Origin: Oryzicola mucosus
GTDB lineage: Bacteria; Pseudomonadota; Alphaproteobacteria; Rhizobiales; Rhizobiaceae
Length of the DNA: 64,000 nt
Direction: 5' to 3'
Assembly (NCBI RefSeq): GCF_014534685.1
Contig: NZ_JACVVX010000008.1
Span: 62,001 to 126,000 of the forward strand
Program-made: the position numbers and the translations under genes
Notes under the pieces: model-generated
What the model saw: only the letters and a program-made list of their open reading frames with translations
Database searches by the model: none
What the model was told of the DNA's origin: nothing
Shown: one piece after another, positions 6,671-51,381 of the stretch
How the letters are laid out: each line of letters opens with the position of its first letter
Position numbering within the stretch: the first letter of the stretch is position 1

Positions 6671-7540
6671 CTAATCCAGACGCCGCAACACGACCGAATA
6701 GGCCCAGAGCGCAGCACCGAAGACGATGAGCACCAGCATCGACAGCGTTGAAGCGAGCGGCCAGTTGAGCGTGACGATGGCTTGGTCGTAAATCTCGGTC
6801 GCCAGCAGGAAGACCCGTCCACCGCCCATTAGCTTTGGCGTGATGAAGGATGAAACAGCCAGTACGAAACAGAGCAGGCAGCCGAGCGCAATGCCGGGGA
6901 GCGTCAGAGGCAGGATAACCTTGGTAAAGGTGCGCGCCGGCGTTGCCCCAAGCGTGCGTGCGGCTTCTTCCACCCGCGGATCGAGCCGCCCGAAGCCCGC
7001 CATCAGCGCCAGGATCATATAGGGCATCAGGATTTCTGTCAGGCCGATGAAGACGCCCTTGATATTGAACATCAGGCTCGGTGCGGGCAGGCCGACGGCC
7101 TTGATGGCGCTGACCACCGGGCCGTCATCGATAAGAATGGCAATCCACCCATAGGTGCGTACGACGGCGGAGGTCAACAGCGGCGAGATGACGAGCACGG
7201 TGAGAAAGGTGCGCCAAGCTCCCGACGCCCTATGGAGGTATAGCGCGATTGGATACGAGGCGATGAGTGTCGTCAGCGTGATCGCCAGGCTGATCCAAAC
7301 GGAGTTGAAGACCAGTTCGAGATAGAACCGATCGCTGAGCAGACCGGCCCAATTCTCCCAGGTAAAGACAGTCTCTATGCCGCCACCGATGCGTGACCTG
7401 TTGAAGGAATAGCGAGCAAGGTTCAGAACGGGCAGGATAAAACCGATCGCATTGATAAGGGCAATGGGCAGCAGCAGCAGGATGGCGAGTTCGCCGTCGC
7501 GCCATTGGCGGGGAGGAGCGGAGGCTGAAACGGCGCTCAT
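6671..7540 (-). CDS. ABC transporter permease, PotB-like
   Basis: A 289-residue permease of the PotB/YdcU type, with an N-terminal cytoplasmic segment, a first helix (LLLLPIALINAIGFILPV) and five more. The coupling loop is EEAARTLGATPARTFTKVILPLTLPGIA and is followed by FVLAVSSFITPKLMGG, characteristic of the family. Its ATG overlaps the stop of the ATPase gene (ATGA at 7537-7540), implying translational coupling. It pairs with the downstream PotC-like permease. Confidence 0.9.
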   Translation of the reverse strand: MSAVSASAPPRQWRDGELAILLLLPIALINAIGFILPVLNLARYSFNRSRIGGGIETVFTWENWAGLLSDRFYLELVFNSVWISLAITLTTLIASYPIALYLHRASGAWRTFLTVLVISPLLTSAVVRTYGWIAILIDDGPVVSAIKAVGLPAPSLMFNIKGVFIGLTEILMPYMILALMAGFGRLDPRVEEAARTLGATPARTFTKVILPLTLPGIALGCLLCFVLAVSSFITPKLMGGGRVFLLATEIYDQAIVTLNWPLASTLSMLVLIVFGAALWAYSVVLRRLD

Positions 7541-8604
7541 TTTTCGCCCGCCGGATAAACGAGGGTGTCTTCCGCAGACCAGCCAAGCGTTACCTTGTCG
7601 CTGACAGCGAGCGGACGGCGGTCGCGTCGCGTTGCCTCTTCCACGACGACCTCTTCGTCGTCGACCCGCACCCCGTATTGCACGAGGTCGCCGATGAAGG
7701 TGATGCTCGATACTGTGCCCTGGACTTCGTTTGCGGCGTCGGCAGTCTCCTGCAAGCGAATGCGGTGCGGCCGAACAAGCACATCCACTGCACCCGGCGC
7801 GAGCGTCGTGGCGGAGCGCAATTGCTGTCCCGCTGCCGTCAGCACGCCTTCGGACGTGATCCTGCCCTTGAGGCGGTTGGTGCGGCCGACGAAATTGGCG
7901 ACGAAGGCGGTTGCCGGCCGTTCATAAACTTCGGTCGGCGTGCCGAACTGCTCGACGTTGCCGCCGCGCATAACCACGACACGATCGCACATGGAGAGCG
8001 CCTCAACCTGATCGTGGGTGACGAAGACAGCGGTGATGCCGCTTTGCTGCTGCAAGGCGCGGATCTGTACCCGCATCTCGTCGCGCAGCTTGGCATCGAG
8101 ATTCGATAACGGCTCGTCGAGCAGCAGGATCGACGGCTCGATGACAAGAGCGCGGGCAAGTGCGACACGTTGTTGTTGTCCGCCGGACAGTTCCTTTGGC
8201 TTGCGATGGGAGAGATGGCCCAGCTGTACCATCTCCAGCGCCTGGGCAGCCCGGGCTTCGGCGTCGCGGCCCGACACTTTGCGCATCTGAAGGCCAAAGG
8301 CGACGTTGCGCGACACATTCATATGCGGAAACAGCGCATAGCTCTGGAACACCATTCCCATGTCTCGATCATGGATTGGAAGGTGGGTGATGTCCCGCCC
8401 TCCCACGATGATCCGGCCTTGCGAGGGTTTGTTAAGGCCGGCGATAACGCGCAAGGTCGTGGTCTTGCCGCATCCCGATGGGCCTAGAAAGGCGACCATC
8501 TCGCCTTTGCGCACTGACAGATCGAGTGAGGGGATCACATTGACGTTGCCGAAGCTGACGCCAATTTCTTGCAGTCTGAGATGTTCTTCGGGGGCGGACG
8601 ACAT
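7537..8604 (-). CDS. ABC transporter ATP-binding protein, PotA-like
   Basis: A 355-residue ATPase of the PotA/FbpC class. Walker A GPSGCGKT, Q-loop MVFQSYALFPHMNV, signature LSGGQQQR, Walker B ILLLDEPLSNLD and the switch VTHDQVEAL are all present. A C-terminal TOBE domain (about residues 275-350) is typical of importers with PotB/C permeases. AGGAGGT lies 7 bp before the ATG. It is separated from the upstream binding-protein gene by a hairpin and a palindromic repeat, so it is likely expressed at a lower level. Confidence 0.92.
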   Translation of the reverse strand: MSSAPEEHLRLQEIGVSFGNVNVIPSLDLSVRKGEMVAFLGPSGCGKTTTLRVIAGLNKPSQGRIIVGGRDITHLPIHDRDMGMVFQSYALFPHMNVSRNVAFGLQMRKVSGRDAEARAAQALEMVQLGHLSHRKPKELSGGQQQRVALARALVIEPSILLLDEPLSNLDAKLRDEMRVQIRALQQQSGITAVFVTHDQVEALSMCDRVVVMRGGNVEQFGTPTEVYERPATAFVANFVGRTNRLKGRITSEGVLTAAGQQLRSATTLAPGAVDVLVRPHRIRLQETADAANEVQGTVSSITFIGDLVQYGVRVDDEEVVVEEATRRDRRPLAVSDKVTLGWSAEDTLVYPAGEK

Positions 8605-41642: not shown

Positions 41643-42428
41643 CTACCGGAACATCGATCCGCCGTCCGTGTCGAGCGCTGCCCCGTAGACGAAGCTGGCC
41701 GCATCGGAACACAGGAACAGGATGGAGGCGGCCATGTCGTCGGGCCTGCCCATGCGGCGCATCGGCAGATTGCCGGCGATGCGGTCCTTCAGCGACTGTT
41801 CGATATGCGAGTGCATTGGCGAGTCGGTCGGGCCGGGATTGAGCGCATTGATACGCACTTTCCTGCCAGCCAGTTCGCGCGCTACCGATTTTACGATCGA
41901 CAGCGTGCCGGCCTTGGATGCCGCATAAGCGGTATCGGCGATCAGCCCGCCACCGCCATGCACGCCTGCATCCGATGCCACGCAGACGATGTTGCCGCCT
42001 GAGGAATTCTCGACCATGCGCTTGGCAGCGCCCTGAACCGTGAAGAAGGTGCCCAGCAGGTTGACGCCATGGACACGCTGCCAATGCGCCCAATCCTGCT
42101 CAAAAATGCGCTTTGCCGTAATGATGGCCGCGCATGTTACGAGATTGTCGAGATGACGAAGGTTGGCATCGCAATAGGAGAACATCGCGTCGATGCTTTC
42201 CGGGTTGCTGACGTCGACAGCGACCGTGTGCACTTTTGCGCCACTTTCCCGCAACTCGCCGCCGTAGCGGTCCAATCCCGTTTCGTCCCGATCGGCCATC
42301 ACCACCTCGGCACCCTTTGAGGCGAAGGCCCTCGCGGTTTCCAGCCCCATGCCGCTTGCGGCGCCGGTTATCAGCACCGTACGGCCAGCAAAGCAGTCGG
42401 CGGCAAAAGTTTTATAGGTGTCGAGCAT
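41643..42428 (-). CDS. Short-chain dehydrogenase/reductase
   Basis: A 261-residue SDR. Cofactor loop TGAASGMGLE, Asp after the second strand in VVMADRDETG (NAD preference likely), catalytic Ser in CVASDAGVHGGG, and Tyr-x3-Lys in AYAASKAGT. GGAGA precedes ATG 42428; a longer frame would run through the operator. It converges with the plus-strand dehydratase operon and is driven from a promoter that carries the same operator as the GntR gene, so both SDRs likely act in one sugar-acid pathway. Confidence 0.9.
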   Translation of the reverse strand: MLDTYKTFAADCFAGRTVLITGAASGMGLETARAFASKGAEVVMADRDETGLDRYGGELRESGAKVHTVAVDVSNPESIDAMFSYCDANLRHLDNLVTCAAIITAKRIFEQDWAHWQRVHGVNLLGTFFTVQGAAKRMVENSSGGNIVCVASDAGVHGGGGLIADTAYAASKAGTLSIVKSVARELAGRKVRINALNPGPTDSPMHSHIEQSLKDRIAGNLPMRRMGRPDDMAASILFLCSDAASFVYGAALDTDGGSMFR

Positions 42429-42510
42429 GTAAGGTCTCCGAGGGAATGCGCGTACAATTTCAGGTCTCCCACTTGGAAGTTGCCTATCCGCGGAAGCCGA
42501 GTCGCTCAGA

Positions 42511-42540
42511 AACTTAGATGCTAAGTTTGATAGTTGTAAA
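42511..42540 (-). promoter_or_regulatory. GntR operator 2 with overlapping minus-strand promoter
   Basis: AACTTAG-ATG-CTAAGTT (42511-42527) repeats the palindrome at 39069 exactly in both arms. On the minus strand TTTACA (42540-42535) lies 18 bp before TAAGTT (42516-42511). Bases between the -35 and the palindrome are also shared (CAACT-N2-CAAA). It drives the SDR gene starting at 42428. The rest of 42429-42841 shows no convincing gene. Confidence 0.7.
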
Positions 42541-42841
42541 GACCGATATGTATGTTCCTGCTTTTTGATCCTGAAATCCACGCCTCCGAGCAGACACGAA
42601 AGCGCACTTCAGCACTGGCCTCCAATTTGAAATCGGTGCGCGAAAGTGGTGATCAGGACGTGGAGGTGCGCATGGCGCTGCGCGCTTCAGTCCAATCTCC
42701 CTCTGCGAATAATGGACTTGGGAAGCTCAATGGTCGCCATCCGCAATGGCTCAAGAGAATCACCAGATAACTTCGCTTCATCAAATCAATAATCGAATAT
42801 TACATCTTGGCATCTAACGATTGCTATTTGGCAGCTATCGA

Positions 42842-44548
42842 ATGTACTCATTACGTATGGGGGTAACAGTGCTGGAGCAGACCGGAGGCGAACCATTGTC
42901 AACGGCGCCCTATATGCGTGGGTTTATGCTACGGGCTCCGAGAATGGCGCTGGCGGCTGTTGTTCTCGGCATGGCTGTTGTTGTTGGATATGTTCTGGGA
43001 TGGGAGCGCTTGTGGCGCCCTTTTCCGGGTGGCCCGGCAACGCACCCTTTAACCGCGGTGTGCTTCATTTTGTTGGGGCTTTCCGCGCTTTTGACCCGTC
43101 CCACTCAGGCAAGTAATCCAAGCGCGGCATTGGCGTTTCTGGCAGGGACTCTCGCCGCGGTCCGGATGTTGACGATGGCGACCGGGCAAGACGACGCCTT
43201 CCAAGCCTGGTCGCCGTTTGGCGATACCTTGGCAATGGGAGCCGCCGCTGGTCAACCCATATCGATGGGGTTGGGGGCATCGATTATGATCGTTTTGCTC
43301 GCTGTTGGCCTCTGTCTTGTGCGCTGTCGGCTTCCGGTTCTATCTCAGGTCATGGCGGTGGCCGCCGCCTATCCGCCGTTGTTCGCTATAGTCGGATATG
43401 TATATGGAGTGGATGATTTCCGTGGCCTTTTTTCGGGGATGACGCTCGGCATGGGTACGCTCTGTGTCGGTGCGGTCCTCGGCCGCACTGCGCACCGAGG
43501 CCCCCTTCGCAGTCTGCTTGCGGCAGGATCGGGAGGTCGAGAAGCTCGTCGCCAGGTTTTGCTTTTGGTGGGGGTGTGCTTCGCCTTGGGATTTATTGCT
43601 ACGAGATCGGGTTTCGACCAGGAGGCGAGGATACTGGCTGTAGAGACCAGCGTCGCCGTGCTCGCGATCGTTTTGGTGTTGCTGAATGCCACTCACCGAC
43701 TGGACAGAGCGGTACTTCGCCGTAAGGATGACGCATTCGTAAAGCCCCCCCTAGTCGCCGATCTCAAAAAAGCTAGGAGCCGGGGCGAGATTTTTCTCGT
43801 CTATCAGCCGCAAGTCAATCTCGCGGACGAAGAGGTTGTTGGTGTGGAAGCCCTCGTACGGTGGTCGCATCCAATTCGTGGGCTGGTATCTCCGAACGAG
43901 TTTATTCCGCTCGCCGAAGCGCATGGCTTGATCAACTCCCTTGGGTCCTGGGTGCTCGAAGAAGCCTGCAGGCAGGCGGCGAGTTGGGATGAGGACGTGC
44001 TGAAAGGAGTGGCGATCTCCGTAAATGTCTCCCCGTTGCAATTGGCGGCCCCTGGATTCGCGGACATGGTGCAGCAGATCGAACATAAGACGGGCCTTGC
44101 AACGGAACGGCTGATCCTTGAAATTACCGAAAGCTCGATGGTGCGGGATAACGAGCGCGGATTTCGGCTTCTGGATGAGTTACGCAGGCGCGGCGTACAC
44201 ATTGCGATCGATGATTTTGGGACTGGCTATTCCAGTCTTTCCTATCTCAGAGATCTTCCCAGCGACTATCTCAAAATCGATCGATCCTTCGTGCGGGACG
44301 TTCCGGGCAAACCGGAAGCCGAGGCGATCGCGCGTGCTGTTGTTGCCGTCGGGAAAAGTCTTGGCTATCAGATCGTTGCCGAGGGGATCGAAACAAGGCA
44401 GCAGGCGGATTTTCTACAGAGTATTTGGTGCGACAAGGGCCAAGGCTATCTTTATGCTCACCCGATGCGAGCCGGGGAACTTGCCGATTGGGCGCGAAAG
44501 CGAACACGACGTGTGGCCGAGACGTCGCCGCAGCACATGGAGGTGTAA
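42842..44548 (+). CDS. Membrane-anchored EAL-domain c-di-GMP phosphodiesterase
   Basis: A 568-residue protein with about eight transmembrane helices (residues 35-290) and a cytoplasmic EAL domain (about 305-550). Catalytic and metal residues look complete: E336 of EAL, N395, E427, D457-D458 (DDFGTGYSSL), K478, E514 and Q534. It should hydrolyse cyclic di-GMP to pGpG. No GGDEF domain is present. The membrane part is a sensor of a type I cannot name. The start is uncertain (TTG 42821, ATG 42842, ATG 42857 or GTG 42869). Its stop overlaps the KaiC start (TAATG), tying c-di-GMP breakdown to a Kai module. Confidence 0.9.
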   Translation: MYSLRMGVTVLEQTGGEPLSTAPYMRGFMLRAPRMALAAVVLGMAVVVGYVLGWERLWRPFPGGPATHPLTAVCFILLGLSALLTRPTQASNPSAALAFLAGTLAAVRMLTMATGQDDAFQAWSPFGDTLAMGAAAGQPISMGLGASIMIVLLAVGLCLVRCRLPVLSQVMAVAAAYPPLFAIVGYVYGVDDFRGLFSGMTLGMGTLCVGAVLGRTAHRGPLRSLLAAGSGGREARRQVLLLVGVCFALGFIATRSGFDQEARILAVETSVAVLAIVLVLLNATHRLDRAVLRRKDDAFVKPPLVADLKKARSRGEIFLVYQPQVNLADEEVVGVEALVRWSHPIRGLVSPNEFIPLAEAHGLINSLGSWVLEEACRQAASWDEDVLKGVAISVNVSPLQLAAPGFADMVQQIEHKTGLATERLILEITESSMVRDNERGFRLLDELRRRGVHIAIDDFGTGYSSLSYLRDLPSDYLKIDRSFVRDVPGKPEAEAIARAVVAVGKSLGYQIVAEGIETRQQADFLQSIWCDKGQGYLYAHPMRAGELADWARKRTRRVAETSPQHMEV

Positions 44549-46266
44549 TGGTCGAGCCTGTTGGTACTGGAACTTACGACAGAAAGCTTAGGACGGGCAT
44601 AGATGGCTTCGACTGCATGTCGGAAGGAGGCCTGCCGGTTGGAAAAGTCTCAGCGGTGGTAGGAACCGCTGGCGCCGGCAAGACGGTGTTTGCCATGCAG
44701 AGCATGATCCATTGTCTCCGCTCCAATCCCGGCGTAGGCGTTGTGGTGTCATTCGAGCAGTCGACCGCGAGCCTGACGGCAGACCTCGCTTCCTTCGACT
44801 GGAACGCGGCAGAACTTATCGAGCAGGGTCGTTTGATCGTGATCGACGGGCGACCGCGAGCGGATGTCCTGTTCAGCGGCGCCTTCGACATCTCCGGATT
44901 GCTTGCAATGGTCGAGGGCGCAGCGGCGCCTGATCGCCCGGCTTGCGTGGTCTTCGACGGGATCGACACACTCATGACTCTGTTGAGTTCATCTTCATCC
45001 CAACGCTTGGAGTTGTTGCGCCTTCAAAACCATATTCAGTGCCTTGGCACCACGGCGATTCTAACTCTCAAGGCCAACCCCGCTACAAGCGGTGGGTTTG
45101 AAGAGATTGCGCTGTATATGGCCGATTGCGTGGTGGAGATGAGACGTGAAGGACAGGATAGCGTTTCCCGACGCAGCATATGGATTCAGAAATACCGTGG
45201 TTCAGGACATTCTTTGGCGCGAGTGCCGTTTATTGTAACATTCAAGGGGGTGGAGGTCGAAGGCGTCGACTCCAGGCCGAATACTGCGCAGGTCTCGAAC
45301 GATCGCCTGTCCATGGGCGTTACGCAGTTGGACGAAATGCTCGGCGGTGGACTTTTCCGCGGCACGAGCACGCTGATATCGGGCGCACCAGGTACAGCGA
45401 AAACGACACTAGGCTTGGCTTTTTTAAACGCTATGTGCCAGCGTGGGGAGCGTGCACTTGGCATTTGTTTCGACGAGCGGCCTAACGAGATCGTCCGAAA
45501 CGTCTCCTCTGTCGGGATTGACCTCACGCCGCACATTGCATCAGGATTGCTCCATCTGCACGGCATCGCCAACCAAACAGCAGGCCCGGATGAGTTTGCT
45601 TATGAGATAGCGACAGCGATCCGGCAGCACCGTGCTCGCCATCTCCTCATCGATCCGATATCCGTTTTCACCCAGGAAGCTCCCGCACAGAATGCCGTAC
45701 GCCGCATTATTCAGCTGTGCAAGCGCGAAGGTATTACGGTCATCCTGACCAGTCTTCTGGATCGCAACGCGCTCGAGGCGGAAGCCTCGCGTTCCTACGT
45801 CTCAACGATTTGCGACACCTGGGTTCACTTGACTTATGTGATCCACGGTGGGGAGCGGAATCGTGCCTTGACCATTATCAAGTCCCGCGGAACTGCCCAT
45901 TCAAATCAGGTTGGAGAGCTTTTGCTCGACGATAACGGTCTTACGATAGCGCGTACCTATACGGAGGAAGGCGAAGTTCTCATGGGTTCGCTGAGATGGC
46001 AGAAGGAAAGAGCCAACGAGCAGGCCATCCGCGATGCGGAAGAGGAGGCGGCCCGCCATTACAGGGAGGCTGAACAATCTGTCGAGGAACTTTCAGGACG
46101 TGTCACATCCCTTAGCAACGAGTTGGAGGCAAAGCGCGAAGAGTTGAAGCGACTGTCCCAAAAAGCGGCCATGATCACCCAACTGGAACGTGAAAGACGG
46201 TCTCAACTGTCGCGCCTGCGGAGTGCTGGCGAACCAATCCAGCAGGCCGTGCAGGAGGTGCCATAA
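44548..46266 (+). CDS. kaiC: KaiC-like double-domain RecA ATPase/kinase
   Basis: A 572-residue KaiC homologue with CI (about 10-240) and CII (about 250-480) domains. Walker A motifs are GTAGAGKT (39-46) and GAPGTAKT (279-286); Walker B regions are CVVFDGID and LLIDPIS. The CII segment SYVSTICDT aligns with the cyanobacterial phospho-site loop, keeping the Ser-Thr pair (S419-T420). The catalytic carboxylate pair is E70-Q71 in CI and D309-E310 in CII. Instead of a short A-loop tail it ends in an 85-residue charged coiled coil (485-560). GGAGGT precedes the ATG. It overlaps the EAL gene before it and the KaiB gene after it. Confidence 0.9.
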   Translation: MVEPVGTGTYDRKLRTGIDGFDCMSEGGLPVGKVSAVVGTAGAGKTVFAMQSMIHCLRSNPGVGVVVSFEQSTASLTADLASFDWNAAELIEQGRLIVIDGRPRADVLFSGAFDISGLLAMVEGAAAPDRPACVVFDGIDTLMTLLSSSSSQRLELLRLQNHIQCLGTTAILTLKANPATSGGFEEIALYMADCVVEMRREGQDSVSRRSIWIQKYRGSGHSLARVPFIVTFKGVEVEGVDSRPNTAQVSNDRLSMGVTQLDEMLGGGLFRGTSTLISGAPGTAKTTLGLAFLNAMCQRGERALGICFDERPNEIVRNVSSVGIDLTPHIASGLLHLHGIANQTAGPDEFAYEIATAIRQHRARHLLIDPISVFTQEAPAQNAVRRIIQLCKREGITVILTSLLDRNALEAEASRSYVSTICDTWVHLTYVIHGGERNRALTIIKSRGTAHSNQVGELLLDDNGLTIARTYTEEGEVLMGSLRWQKERANEQAIRDAEEEAARHYREAEQSVEELSGRVTSLSNELEAKREELKRLSQKAAMITQLERERRSQLSRLRSAGEPIQQAVQEVP

Positions 46267-46565
46267 TGGGGGAGGCCTGGAATGATCGGCAGGATACGTC
46301 CGACGACAAATCTACGCTGGAACTCTATGTCGCAGGTGATAATCTCAATTCGCGCCGCGCCGTCGCCAATCTTGATGAAGTAGTCAGGCGCCTCGACGTA
46401 AAAACAAAGGTGCTCATCGTCGACGTGTTGAAAGAGCCTAAAACCGCCTTCACCCGCCGTATATTCGTGACACCATCGTTGATTTACACTGTCGGGGGAC
46501 GTCAAAATCTTGTCGTTGGCGATCTTTCTGATGTCAATGGCGTGCTTGAAAAGCTGAGGACTTAA
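46266..46565 (+). CDS. kaiB: KaiB-like protein (thioredoxin-like fold)
   Basis: A 99-residue KaiB homologue. The family pattern is clear: LELYVAGDNLNSRRAVANL at the N-terminus, VLIVDVLKEPKTA in the middle, then FVTPSLI (the cis-Pro region) and VGDLSD. KaiB proteins bind the CI ring of KaiC and, in cyanobacteria, switch fold. Its ATG overlaps the KaiC stop (TAATG). There is no kaiA, which is normal outside cyanobacteria, and no histidine kinase next door, which is often found with alphaproteobacterial kaiBC. The 238 bp after it (46566-46803) show no gene. Confidence 0.9.
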   Translation: MGEAWNDRQDTSDDKSTLELYVAGDNLNSRRAVANLDEVVRRLDVKTKVLIVDVLKEPKTAFTRRIFVTPSLIYTVGGRQNLVVGDLSDVNGVLEKLRT

Positions 46566-46803
46566 TTCGGGTCCGCCGTGTCATTGTCCGGCTGCGGTCG
46601 TCATAGTAGCAGTGCCGGGGCCTTCGGGCGTGAGAAACAGTGATGCCTCGACCCGGTTTCTTCCATCGTGCTTTGCCTGGTTTGGTCGCTCGAAATGGCG
46701 GTGGAAGAGCGAAGATTGAAGCCGGCCTGTGGGTCGGGCGTTTCTCGGGGATCGAATTGCTGGCTACAGATTCCGAACACAGCATCGGCATCAGTTCGCA
46801 ATC

Positions 46804-47859
46804 TCAATGAAGGGCACGCTCCGTCGTCAACATGGCGTTCATGACCTCACGTAGACTGATGGTGCCTATGGGCATGTTTGCGTCATCGACTACAGTCAGC
46901 TTGTCGACATCGTTCTGCCTGAAGACATAAGCGGCTGCTTCCAGTGTCGCTTCCCCGGCAATGGAAACGGTCGAGCGGCTATCGCCGTCTCCAAGTGGCG
47001 CCATCGCCGATGCGACGCGAACGACACGGCCGCGGTTCACCTCCTTCACGAAGGAGGCGATGTAGTCATCTGCGGGTCTTAGGACGATATCCTGACTGTT
47101 TCCCTGCTGAACGATCTCGCCGTCCCTCAAGATAGCGATACCGTCCCCCAGTCGAAGGGCTTCATCCAGGTCATGCGTGATGAAAACGATAGTTTTGCGG
47201 ATTTCCTTCTGAAGGTCGAGCAATACGGATTGCATGTCGGCTCTGATCAACGGGTCGAGCGCGGAAAAGGCCTCGTCCATGAGCAGGATCGGGGCATCGT
47301 TGGCCAACGCTCGTGCCAACCCGACCCGTTGCTGCATGCCGCCCGACAACTGGTTCGGGTAGCGGTTCTCGAAACCTGTCAAGCCGACGCGGTCGAGCCA
47401 TGTCATGGCGGCTTCGACCTGTTTGCCACGGGGCAGGCCCTGTACTTCGAGGCCGTATACGGTGTTCTCCAGAACGGTTCGATGCGGCAGCAATCCAAAT
47501 TTCTGAAAAACCATCGCCGTCTTGTGACGCCGAAACTCACGCAGATCGAGTGGAGTAAATTTGACCACATCCGTCCCTTCCACCAGGACTTGACCGGCCG
47601 TGGGATCGATAAGGCGATTTATATGCCGGATCAAAGTCGACTTGCCCGAGCCCGACAATCCCATGATCACCTGAATCGAGCCGGCCGGCATGTCGATGTT
47701 GATGTCCTTCAGGCCCAGCACATGTCCGTGCTTTTCGAGCAACTCGGTCTTGGACATCCCGCGTTGAACCTTGTCGACATATTCAAGTCCCGACCGACCG
47801 AAGATTTTGAAAAGGTTGCGTATTTGAATGCCGGTGCTGTTTCCGCCGGTGTTAACCAT
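46804..47859 (-). CDS. Glycine-betaine-type ABC transporter ATP-binding protein (ProV-like)
   Basis: A 351-residue ATPase. It shows MGLSGSGKST (Walker A), MVFQKFGLLPHRTV (Q-loop), LSGGMQQR (signature), LLMDEAFSALDPLIR (the DEA form of Walker B usual in ProV/OpuA) and FITHDLDEA. A C-terminal region (about 280-345) contains a CBS-like unit, which in OpuA senses ionic strength. It overlaps the permease gene by 8 bp. With the ProW- and ProX-like genes it imports a quaternary amine or related onium compound. Confidence 0.92.
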   Translation of the reverse strand: MVNTGGNSTGIQIRNLFKIFGRSGLEYVDKVQRGMSKTELLEKHGHVLGLKDINIDMPAGSIQVIMGLSGSGKSTLIRHINRLIDPTAGQVLVEGTDVVKFTPLDLREFRRHKTAMVFQKFGLLPHRTVLENTVYGLEVQGLPRGKQVEAAMTWLDRVGLTGFENRYPNQLSGGMQQRVGLARALANDAPILLMDEAFSALDPLIRADMQSVLLDLQKEIRKTIVFITHDLDEALRLGDGIAILRDGEIVQQGNSQDIVLRPADDYIASFVKEVNRGRVVRVASAMAPLGDGDSRSTVSIAGEATLEAAAYVFRQNDVDKLTVVDDANMPIGTISLREVMNAMLTTERALH

Positions 47860-49915: not shown

Positions 49916-50737
49916 CTATCCCGCAGGCTTGTCGGCAGATGCTGTCATATCTGCGACGGATAATGCCGCAGCTCGCAATCCGGCGTGGACCGCATCTGAA
50001 AATCCGGCTCGGATCATTTCATGCAAAGCTGCTGCCGTAGTTCCTCGATAGTTCAGAAAACTCTCCACAGTGGAATTGGGCATGAACTCATCGCTGTCGA
50101 TCAATCTGCTTGCCCCGCAAACCACGCCACGAACCGCTTTTTCTGCAACATGCGACGGTATCCCGGCGGTCTCGGCGTGAGACAGCATAGAGCTTGCAAG
50201 CAAAGCTGGGAATGCCGGGCCGGATCCGCTGAGCCCGGTCAGATAGTCGAGGTGCGCTTCCATTCCCACTTCGTCTTCTTCGCCGCACGCGGCCATGAGC
50301 GAACTGACGAAGAGACGATCTGATGCGGTTACGTTGCCGGTTGCGACCCATGGGCTGTAAGAGCGGCCTATCTCGGCGGCGGCGTTCGGCATTGCACGGA
50401 CGATGCGATCAGCGTTCAGTCGCCGCTTGAGCGTCTCCAGGGAAATCCCGGCCATGACGGAGATGACCAAACGGCCTTCCAAGTTGAGGGAAATGTCTCG
50501 GAACTGGTGCGGTCTGACAGACAGAACGACTATGTCTGCGCGACGGGAAAGTTCTTCATTGTCCGCCGTCCACACGATTTCCGGCCAGTTTGCGAACCGG
50601 TTACCTCGTGGCGACCGAGAGGAGATGATGAGCAAGGACTTTGAACTAAGCACCCCCGCCGACAATCCCCGCGTCGCAATGGCGCTCCCCAGCCAACCGG
50701 CGCCGCCAACGATGCCCACAACGGCCGAACCGTCCAT
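49916..50737 (-). CDS. Pyrroline-5-carboxylate reductase family protein (ProC-like)
   Basis: A 273-residue ProC homologue. The N-terminal Rossmann motif is GIVGGAGWLGSAIA, the middle has VVLSVRPHQF and MPNAAAEIG, and the C-terminal dimerisation domain has LTGLSGSGPAF and YRGTTAAAL, all ProC signatures. ATG 50737 overlaps the TetR stop (TGATG). It normally reduces P5C to proline with NAD(P)H. As a second-locus copy beside betaine genes it may act on a methylated or cyclic imine analogue; this is inference. Confidence 0.87.
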   Translation of the reverse strand: MDGSAVVGIVGGAGWLGSAIATRGLSAGVLSSKSLLIISSRSPRGNRFANWPEIVWTADNEELSRRADIVVLSVRPHQFRDISLNLEGRLVISVMAGISLETLKRRLNADRIVRAMPNAAAEIGRSYSPWVATGNVTASDRLFVSSLMAACGEEDEVGMEAHLDYLTGLSGSGPAFPALLASSMLSHAETAGIPSHVAEKAVRGVVCGASRLIDSDEFMPNSTVESFLNYRGTTAAALHEMIRAGFSDAVHAGLRAAALSVADMTASADKPAG

Positions 50738-51381
50738 CAAACGAATTCCTCGGCACCTTGTTTAGCATTGAGCGTGAATTTGTGACGCGATGCAAATCTC
50801 TCCATTTCGCGGCGTTGCGGAGCCTGACCGGTATAGATTTCCACATAGGAGGGTATGCGCTTCATCCGCACTGCGAGGTCCTCCTTGGTGTTCATGGAAA
50901 TATAGCCGATCTGGACAAGATAGATCGTCCGCGCACGGACCTCGGCTGCCAGTTGCGGAAAGCCGAAACGCACGAACATTGCCGTCAGCGCGGAAATCCT
51001 TGCTTCGTCGGCTCCCTTTATTTCGGCGGCGACTGCAGGCGACTGGAGAGCCCAACTCCGCACTGCGAACTCGAACTGGGAGTCGAACAGGGATTGATCG
51101 AGCCAGCAGTCGAAAACGTTCAGCATGGCTTCGGCTATCGTTTCGGCGTAGGCGTCGCAGCGTTGCTGAATGCTCGCGGTATTCCGCGCCTTCCAACTCT
51201 GCAGAAGAGCGTCGAGAAGCGCTTCACGGTCGGCGAAAAACCAATAAAAGCTCGTTCTCGACAGATTAAGCTTCTTGGCGAGGGGAAGTATGCGTACGGC
51301 ATCGACCCCGGCATCGATGAAGGCGTCATAAGCGCTTTTCAGCCAGACGTCCTTTGAGCCGCGCCACACTGTCTCGTTCAA
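50737..51381 (-). CDS. TetR-family transcriptional regulator
   Basis: A regulator of 214 residues. The N-terminal helix-turn-helix includes AYDAFIDAGVDAVRILPLAKKLNLSRTSFYWFFADREALLDALL, the TetR pattern. I chose TTG 51381 because GGGAGG lies 5 bp upstream; a longer frame starts with another TTG at 51444 without such a site. It is divergent from the flavin demethylase gene and translationally coupled to the ProC-like gene, so it probably controls the onium-compound locus from the 51382-51529 region, which contains TTGACA at 51471. Confidence 0.9.
   Translation of the reverse strand: MNETVWRGSKDVWLKSAYDAFIDAGVDAVRILPLAKKLNLSRTSFYWFFADREALLDALLQSWKARNTASIQQRCDAYAETIAEAMLNVFDCWLDQSLFDSQFEFAVRSWALQSPAVAAEIKGADEARISALTAMFVRFGFPQLAAEVRARTIYLVQIGYISMNTKEDLAVRMKRIPSYVEIYTGQAPQRREMERFASRHKFTLNAKQGAEEFV

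Follow-up and report, generated by a model that had tools for sequence, protein, structure and literature searches.

An EAL phosphodiesterase gene co-inherited with kaiC and kaiB in a three-gene operon of Oryzicola mucosus

In a stretch of 64,000 nucleotides (nt) from the Rhizobiaceae bacterium Oryzicola mucosus (contig NZ_JACVVX010000008.1, positions 62,001 to 126,000; hereafter the window), a gene for an EAL-domain protein, predicted to break down cyclic di-GMP (c-di-GMP), lies directly upstream of kaiC and kaiB, and the three form a module that is real, conserved and under-described. Co-inheritance of the EAL protein with KaiC is well supported by sequence comparisons across alpha-, beta- and gammaproteobacterial lineages. 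We give a probability of roughly 0.55 to the reading that EAL, kaiC and kaiB are one co-inherited signalling module in which a KaiBC timer or energy switch acts on c-di-GMP via its own phosphodiesterase, while the broader claim that Kai and EAL act in one pathway appears quite likely. To our knowledge, the targets of KaiA-less KaiBC systems outside cyanobacteria are largely open.

Organization of the operon

A sequence-only reading of this region had described EAL, kaiC and kaiB as joined by TAATG overlaps, which proves exact to the base for the open reading frames (ORFs) and for both junctions:

42842..44548, + strand: EAL phosphodiesterase gene, 568 amino acids (aa), with an N-terminal membrane-like region (ORF calls, Pfam)
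44546..44550, + strand: TAATG stop/start overlap at the EAL-kaiC junction (sequence)
44548..46266, + strand: kaiC, 572 aa, two KaiC domains and a C-terminal extension (ORF, Pfam, structure alignment)
46264..46268, + strand: TAATG stop/start overlap at the kaiC-kaiB junction (sequence)
46266..46565, + strand: kaiB, 99 aa, thioredoxin-like fold in the model (Pfam, model)

The EAL gene starts at ATG 42842 (other possible in-frame starts are TTG 42821 and ATG 42857) and ends with TAA 44546-44548, overlapping by 1 nt the kaiC ATG at 44548-44550; the kaiC stop TAA 46264-46266 meets the kaiB ATG at 46266, and kaiB ends at 46565. Because the genes on either side lie on the opposite strand (an SDR-family gene at 41643-42581 and an ABC ATPase gene at 46804-47859), the operon consists of these three genes. 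No histidine kinase or GGDEF domain was matched in the 64-kb window (local hidden Markov models (HMMs), E 1e-4), and with the flanking genes on the other strand the kai operon has no histidine kinase. At 42000-47300 no Rfam RNA element was matched, and neither promoter-like sites (3 vs 2.1 in shuffles, standard deviation 1.7) nor terminator-like sites (4 vs 4.9) exceeded chance.

Co-inheritance of EAL and KaiC

The window KaiC falls in a clade of seven, together with homologs from a Xanthobacteraceae metagenome-assembled genome (MAG; L100), Kaistia soli (L098, L102), Kaistia hirudinis (L103), Variovorax ginsengisoli (L099) and a gammaproteobacterial MAG (L101). This clade has an SH-aLRT support of 99 in a quick tree of 137 rows and a bootstrap/SH-aLRT support of 100/100 in a more careful tree of 49 rows. 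An EAL gene stands directly upstream of kaiC-kaiB in every member (six encode EAL-only proteins and L101 a GGDEF-EAL protein), i.e., the order EAL-kaiC-kaiB, whose absence from relatives had been named beforehand as grounds for abandoning the proposal, is conserved in 7/7 cases. The quick tree comprised 137 of 145 loci, omitting three without kaiC, three duplicates (L048, L049 and L149, which repeat L102, L098 and L094) and two with KaiC domains under 380 aa; the careful tree left aside seven long-branched or odd rows and those with unknown partners, and its 22 histidine-kinase rows were randomly drawn. On the careful tree, the label of an upstream EAL (12 rows) changes twice, vs a shuffled mean of 10.9, and none of 500 shuffles was as low.

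The same seven EALs also form a clade in the EAL tree (support 98/96; 51 of 56 domains, duplicates and short pieces omitted), outside which fall nine other EALs of the window's genome and eight of the nearest plasmid EALs. Its sole extra member is a second EAL encoded about 1 kb behind kaiB at L100, with a LysR-like gene between them on the other strand. In both the KaiC and the EAL tree, Kaistia soli copy 2 is sister to the window and L101 is outermost. Over the 12 EAL-upstream loci, pairwise identities of KaiC and EAL are correlated (r 0.87, 0/5000 permutations), a comparison made on loci with both KaiC and EAL rows and without L161, a near-copy of L160. Since EAL domains are matched 11 times in the 4.9 Mb of this genome, counting that in the window, placement directly before kaiC by chance is unlikely.

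The kaiC-kaiB stop/start overlap recurs at all seven loci. Between EAL and kaiC such an overlap exists in Variovorax and the window; at the remaining five loci a short gap separates the two genes, with the start of the KaiC domain at most 109 nt from the EAL stop. EAL, KaiC and KaiB are constant across the seven loci and the part before the EAL domain is variable or missing, a pattern that would favour Kai control of the EAL domain over a sensor feeding both. Beyond the module, the flanks (BLAST, E 1e-8) share a GGDEF gene in 3/7 loci, i.e., both of Kaistia soli and that of Variovorax; apart from the second L100 EAL, all other matches have 26-38% identity and resemble common families. The GGDEF genes lie at 9042-10058 in L098, 4069-5088 in L102 and 9224-10837 in L099, and encode a GAF-GGDEF protein in the Kaistia soli copy scanned and a GGDEF domain with a weak Cache match in Variovorax. 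Kaistia soli and Variovorax thus likely have a maker and a breaker of c-di-GMP beside kaiBC; the window has no GGDEF gene.

Association of EAL genes with kaiBC is not confined to this clade. A single clade for all 12 EAL-upstream rows gave an approximately unbiased test value (p-AU) of 0.107 (L053 and L171 omitted), which neither establishes nor rejects it; we do not claim that the kai-EAL groups of Halomonas, Aquisalimonas, Wenzhouxiangella and Rhodovibrio, or L053 and L097, share a single clade with that of the window. The starred branches of the EAL tree force at least four changes of the upstream label, which suggests that several EAL lineages joined kaiBC operons independently.

The EAL protein and its IWC motif

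The features of the EAL protein are as follows:

42905..43738, + strand: N-terminal multi-helix region (aa 22-299), no Pfam family above cut-off (hydropathy, model)
43760..44464, + strand: EAL domain (aa 307-541), ten checked catalytic positions intact
44423..44431, + strand: IWC motif (aa 528-530) of the window's kai-linked EAL clade (7/7 vs 0/27)

The EAL domain (Pfam match 7.7e-75) indeed retains the complete catalytic set read from its sequence, judged by ten positions described as catalytic in the EAL literature. Across 17 kai-linked upstream EALs these positions vary only at the loop-6 Thr (three rows) and the last Glu (one row), and the window protein should be a c-di-GMP phosphodiesterase, as predicted from these residues. 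Its closest fold match is the EAL domain of BifA (Z 34.2, root mean square deviation 1.5, 251 residues aligned, 44% identity), a comparison covering aa 296-558 in which the membrane part was barely tested. The protein thus resembles the BifA/MorA-type phosphodiesterases in EAL fold and catalytic residues, but differs from them in having no GGDEF domain, in the IWC motif and in sharing an operon with kaiBC.

The N-terminus is hydrophobic, with seven transmembrane-like segments in a simple hydropathy scan, and helical in the predicted structure. Of the transmembrane sensor proposed from the sequence, the membrane-like part therefore stands and the sensor part is putative, as no sensor domain scored above the Pfam cut-off in this region (an MgtC match lies below it). 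The region has 54% identity to that of Kaistia soli copy 2, 34% to Variovorax and 28% to K. hirudinis; it is partial in K. soli copy 1 and absent from the Xanthobacteraceae MAG, whose EAL protein has 331 aa, no transmembrane-like segment and no other Pfam domain. In the gammaproteobacterial MAG, PAS, GAF and GGDEF domains precede the EAL domain, together with a Cache match below cut-off. A sensorless EAL needs a regulator, and KaiBC, encoded in the same operon, is therefore a candidate, an argument drawn from one metagenome-assembled gene (L100). This 331-aa member, having neither membrane nor sensor region, would allow KaiC, KaiB, EAL and c-di-GMP to be mixed in a tube.

Near the C-terminus of the EAL domain, the motif IWC is present in all seven clade members, as well as in the second L100 EAL, vs 0/27 background EALs (one of which has no such stretch). 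A search of 397 genomes of the order with a DNA pattern for the motif gave three matches in two genomes. These are the EAL gene of the window and the two copies of Kaistia soli, every one kai-linked; none lies away from kaiC, and the reversed pattern used as control matched nothing. As the pattern was derived from these genes, matching them was expected, and the informative result is that nothing else matched. Among 11 genomes sampled from the genus group of Kaistia soli, the motif occurs in K. soli alone.

Histidine kinases and c-di-GMP enzymes as partners of kaiBC

A KaiB survey (E 1e-5) of 397 genomes of the order and 385 of the class, in which every listed KaiB place was inspected, found KaiB in 38 and 14 genomes, respectively (both counts include the window's genome), and 55 loci in all. 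A histidine kinase lies beside the kai pair in 43 of them (41 downstream, 2 upstream), and an EAL or GGDEF-EAL protein in six (five upstream EAL or GGDEF-EAL, one downstream GGDEF-EAL); three of the remainder have KaiB without KaiC and three no recognised partner. The contrast with histidine-kinase partners drawn in the sequence-only reading therefore holds, and a c-di-GMP-enzyme partner is a minority form.

Querying contigs with the single window KaiC sequence gave no matches; an alignment query gave relatives. The best 80 of 97 such relatives, one genome per species, are biased to kin of the window KaiC and give no abundance estimate: they comprise 12 loci with EAL upstream, three with EAL upstream and a histidine kinase downstream, six with GGDEF-EAL downstream, two with GGDEF downstream on a cut contig, 34 with a histidine kinase downstream and four with one upstream, and 19 without assigned partner. 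Partners were labelled by local HMMs and distance rules (L097 and L036 by hand), and some of the 19 partnerless loci lie at contig ends; at least one of the 19, L134, does have a kinase gene directly behind kaiB, and in another, L147, a GGDEF-EAL gene follows kaiB at a distance of about 1.1 kb.

The window's genome also encodes a second, distant double-domain KaiC (26% identity; contig C12, 12401-16889; L194, 2402-6890), behind which come an HWE histidine kinase and another kinase; KaiB is matched nowhere in this genome but in the window. With these kinases and the window EAL, both partner types occur within one genome. In a further KaiC group (L094/L149, L096, L163, L164), a histidine kinase gene upstream of kaiC-kaiB occupies the slot of the window's EAL gene.

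KaiC and KaiB

The two-domain KaiC and the KaiB noted from the sequence are both confirmed by Pfam, with the following features in KaiC:

44662..44685, + strand: CI Walker A GTAGAGKT (aa 39-46) (sequence, alignment)
45382..45405, + strand: CII Walker A GAPGTAKT (aa 279-286) (sequence, alignment)
45802..45807, + strand: S419-T420 (VST motif), aligned with the Ser-Ser pair of Cereibacter (Rhodobacter) sphaeroides KaiC (alignment)
46003..46260, + strand: C-terminal extension (aa 486-571), coiled-coil-like (coiled-coil family matches below cut-off, 8dba alignment)

KaiC matches PF06745 in two stretches (6.3e-82) and passes NCBIfam PRK09302 (412.1 bits, cut-off 408), and against the cyanobacterial-type TIGR02655 (circ_KaiC) it scores 245 bits, below the cut-off of 546.25. 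Among solved structures this KaiC is nearest to KaiC 8zn5 and to 8dba, the KaiC of C. sphaeroides, with which it aligns up to aa 550. The Ser-Ser pair of C. sphaeroides aligned with S419-T420 is taken to be the phosphosites S413/S414; one paper names the variants S413E/S414E for this KaiC, and describes C. sphaeroides KaiBC as an hourglass driven by the ATP-to-ADP ratio, in which a C-terminal coiled coil joins two hexamers (PMC10076222). No phage origin of KaiC is indicated by 50,697 phage records, which gave no match, and among the 40 matches listed from 284 plasmid records no KaiC exceeded 35.1% identity.

KaiB passes PF07689 (39.7 bits, cut-off 27) and reaches 38.3 bits against the cyanobacterial-type TIGR02654, far below the curated cut-off of 145.3; by these scores it is a divergent KaiB and not of the cyanobacterial type. 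Its model is thioredoxin-like, with a mean predicted local distance difference test (pLDDT) score of 81.5, from a single AlphaFold run on 14 sequences that cannot tell whether KaiB switches fold.

Comparison with known Kai systems

The kaiC-kaiB-histidine kinase operon of C. sphaeroides resembles that of the window in having kaiC followed by kaiB together with a gene for a signalling enzyme and no kaiA, and its type of KaiC (32-34% identity) also has a C-terminal extension. The partner differs: an EAL phosphodiesterase upstream of kaiC in the window, and an HWE histidine kinase downstream of kaiB in C. sphaeroides. Like the KaiABC-SasA-RpaA clock of Synechococcus elongatus, the window has a double-domain KaiC, a KaiB and two neighbouring residues, S and T, at the CII phosphosites; unlike that clock, its operon has no kaiA or SasA-like kinase and a c-di-GMP enzyme instead.

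In 2011, De Luca et al. already noted GGDEF/EAL proteins immediately downstream of kaiC-kaiB (PMC3164672), clusters in which, as in the window, the enzyme next to kaiBC is one of c-di-GMP turnover and not a histidine kinase; the window differs in that its EAL has no GGDEF domain, lies upstream and belongs to a distinct, co-inherited subfamily. In a 2017 survey of Kai homologs (PMC5520375), a term search of the main text found none of "EAL", "GGDEF" and "c-di-GMP". We found no paper on an upstream, EAL-only, co-inherited kai partner, which is weak evidence of novelty given that most subscription papers lay outside the search.

Possible function of the module

From its families, KaiC would be an ATP-hydrolysing, probably self-phosphorylating ring that forms with KaiB a timer or a switch responding to cell energy. 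Whereas a histidine kinase of the same operon carries the KaiC state on in relatives, the EAL phosphodiesterase would take that role here, so that the Kai state would raise or lower c-di-GMP breakdown, in this case at the membrane. We infer contact of KaiC or KaiB with the EAL domain, an output in c-di-GMP, and control that runs from the Kai proteins to the phosphodiesterase. Signalling through a histidine kinase, the usual route, is difficult to trace; the output proposed here is a single enzyme, whose activity lends itself to direct measurement.

Several observations weigh against this reading. Co-inheritance is no proof of contact or direction, and within the seven loci the correlation of KaiC and EAL identities is modest (r 0.58, 121/5000 permutations). 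IWC is absent from the other kai-linked EALs inspected (10/17 upstream, 6/6 downstream), so that it is a mark of the subfamily and not a general mark of Kai binding, and it may mark only descent. An upstream EAL coexists with a downstream histidine kinase in three loci (L111, L129, L137). The active-site pairs of the window KaiC are E-Q in CI and D-E in CII, vs E-E in C. sphaeroides KaiC, which leaves its kinase activity uncertain, the Glu-Glu pair being presumably important in both sites; D-E is present in CII in 6/6 rows of one KaiC alignment, and as many histidine-kinase-linked KaiCs also deviate from E-E, the pair does not divide members from non-members. The KaiB model is nearest to Legionella KaiB 4kun and to fold-switched KaiB bound to KaiC, and its binding to this KaiC is putative. 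Finally, a 2026 report on S. elongatus saw no consistent direct action of c-di-GMP on KaiC, or on Kai proteins generally, in vitro (PMC13001216).

A more specific version, which we hold tentatively and below even odds, is that KaiC, together with KaiB, acts directly on the EAL domain to gate a phosphodiesterase of its own, so that the energy state of the cell or the time elapsed would set the c-di-GMP level with no phosphorelay in between, in operons that several EAL lineages joined independently. Its odds are lowered because IWC is missing from the other kai-linked EALs. If KaiC does gate the EAL protein, two major fields of bacterial signalling, Kai timers and c-di-GMP, would be joined.

Control could also run the other way, the membrane EAL sensing some signal or degrading c-di-GMP and thereby setting the KaiC state, with c-di-GMP or its product as the Kai input. 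The position of the EAL gene as first in the operon and the membrane or Cache/PAS/GAF region before the EAL domain in 6/7 members agree with this, as does a lengthening of the S. elongatus clock period by 0.6 h upon phosphodiesterase expression, given in the same 2026 report (PMC13001216); yet the 331-aa member has no sensor region, the same source finds the in vitro result cited above, and in S. elongatus the KaiC state goes outward via the kinase SasA (PMC13001216), all of which makes this direction unlikely. Co-expression alone, with EAL and KaiBC serving one physiological state (e.g., surface life or stress) without acting on each other, seems about equally improbable: operon partners need no contact, the module resembles a gained cassette (see below), and IWC may reflect descent, but the EAL subfamily has been inherited with KaiC across alpha, beta and gamma lineages, and in the 397 genomes of the order every match to its motif lay beside kaiC.

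Genomic setting

The EAL-kaiC-kaiB module has the look of a cassette that was gained. In the one other genome of the genus compared, similarity to the window, on two contigs, breaks off at base 42410 and resumes at 46804; the kai region is absent and the best KaiC match has 27% identity. Base composition was rejected as proof of transfer, the GC content (0.568 vs 0.595) and the lower third-position GC being merely mild deviations. Among the plasmid EAL relatives listed, 0 of 30 matches reach the N-terminal 286 residues, and in this search, limited to 5000 records, no record covers 80% of the protein. The best match of the right flank is to Rhizobium leguminosarum plasmids, at about 76% over 22% of the query.

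Such patchy spread, with IWC restricted to K. soli in its genus group and an alphaproteobacterial kaiC behind a GGDEF-EAL gene that looks frameshifted (L097), might suggest a cluster of genes that is degenerate or in passage and does not function as a unit, but this is very improbable given that the EAL, kaiC and kaiB frames are all open, that only two of the ten catalytic positions vary across the upstream EALs and that the kaiC-kaiB overlaps recur at every locus of the clade.

Elsewhere in the window, positions 50069-50695, inside a pyrroline-5-carboxylate reductase-like ORF (49916-50740), have no counterpart in the second genome of the genus; there the two flanks adjoin each other.

Other kai loci

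Some of the loci collected depart from the common arrangements. The L097 kaiC is split into two overlapping frames (6697-8239), by a frameshift or a sequencing error. In a Chloroflexi MAG (L145, 437-2797), a single 786-aa frame contains both KaiC and KaiB domains, perhaps a natural fusion of the two proteins. Three loci (L051, L052, L054) have KaiB-domain genes directly ahead of histidine kinase genes, and the stretch fetched contains no kaiC. A Pararhizobium plasmid, typed as conjugative, carries tandem kaiB genes behind kaiC (L034, 7668-8341), and after them a response-regulator gene with a kinase domain. Two gammaproteobacterial MAGs (L118, L130) carry tandem kaiC genes in the order kaiC, GGDEF-kinase fusion, kaiC, kaiB and GGDEF(-EAL) protein, the last gene being cut in L118.

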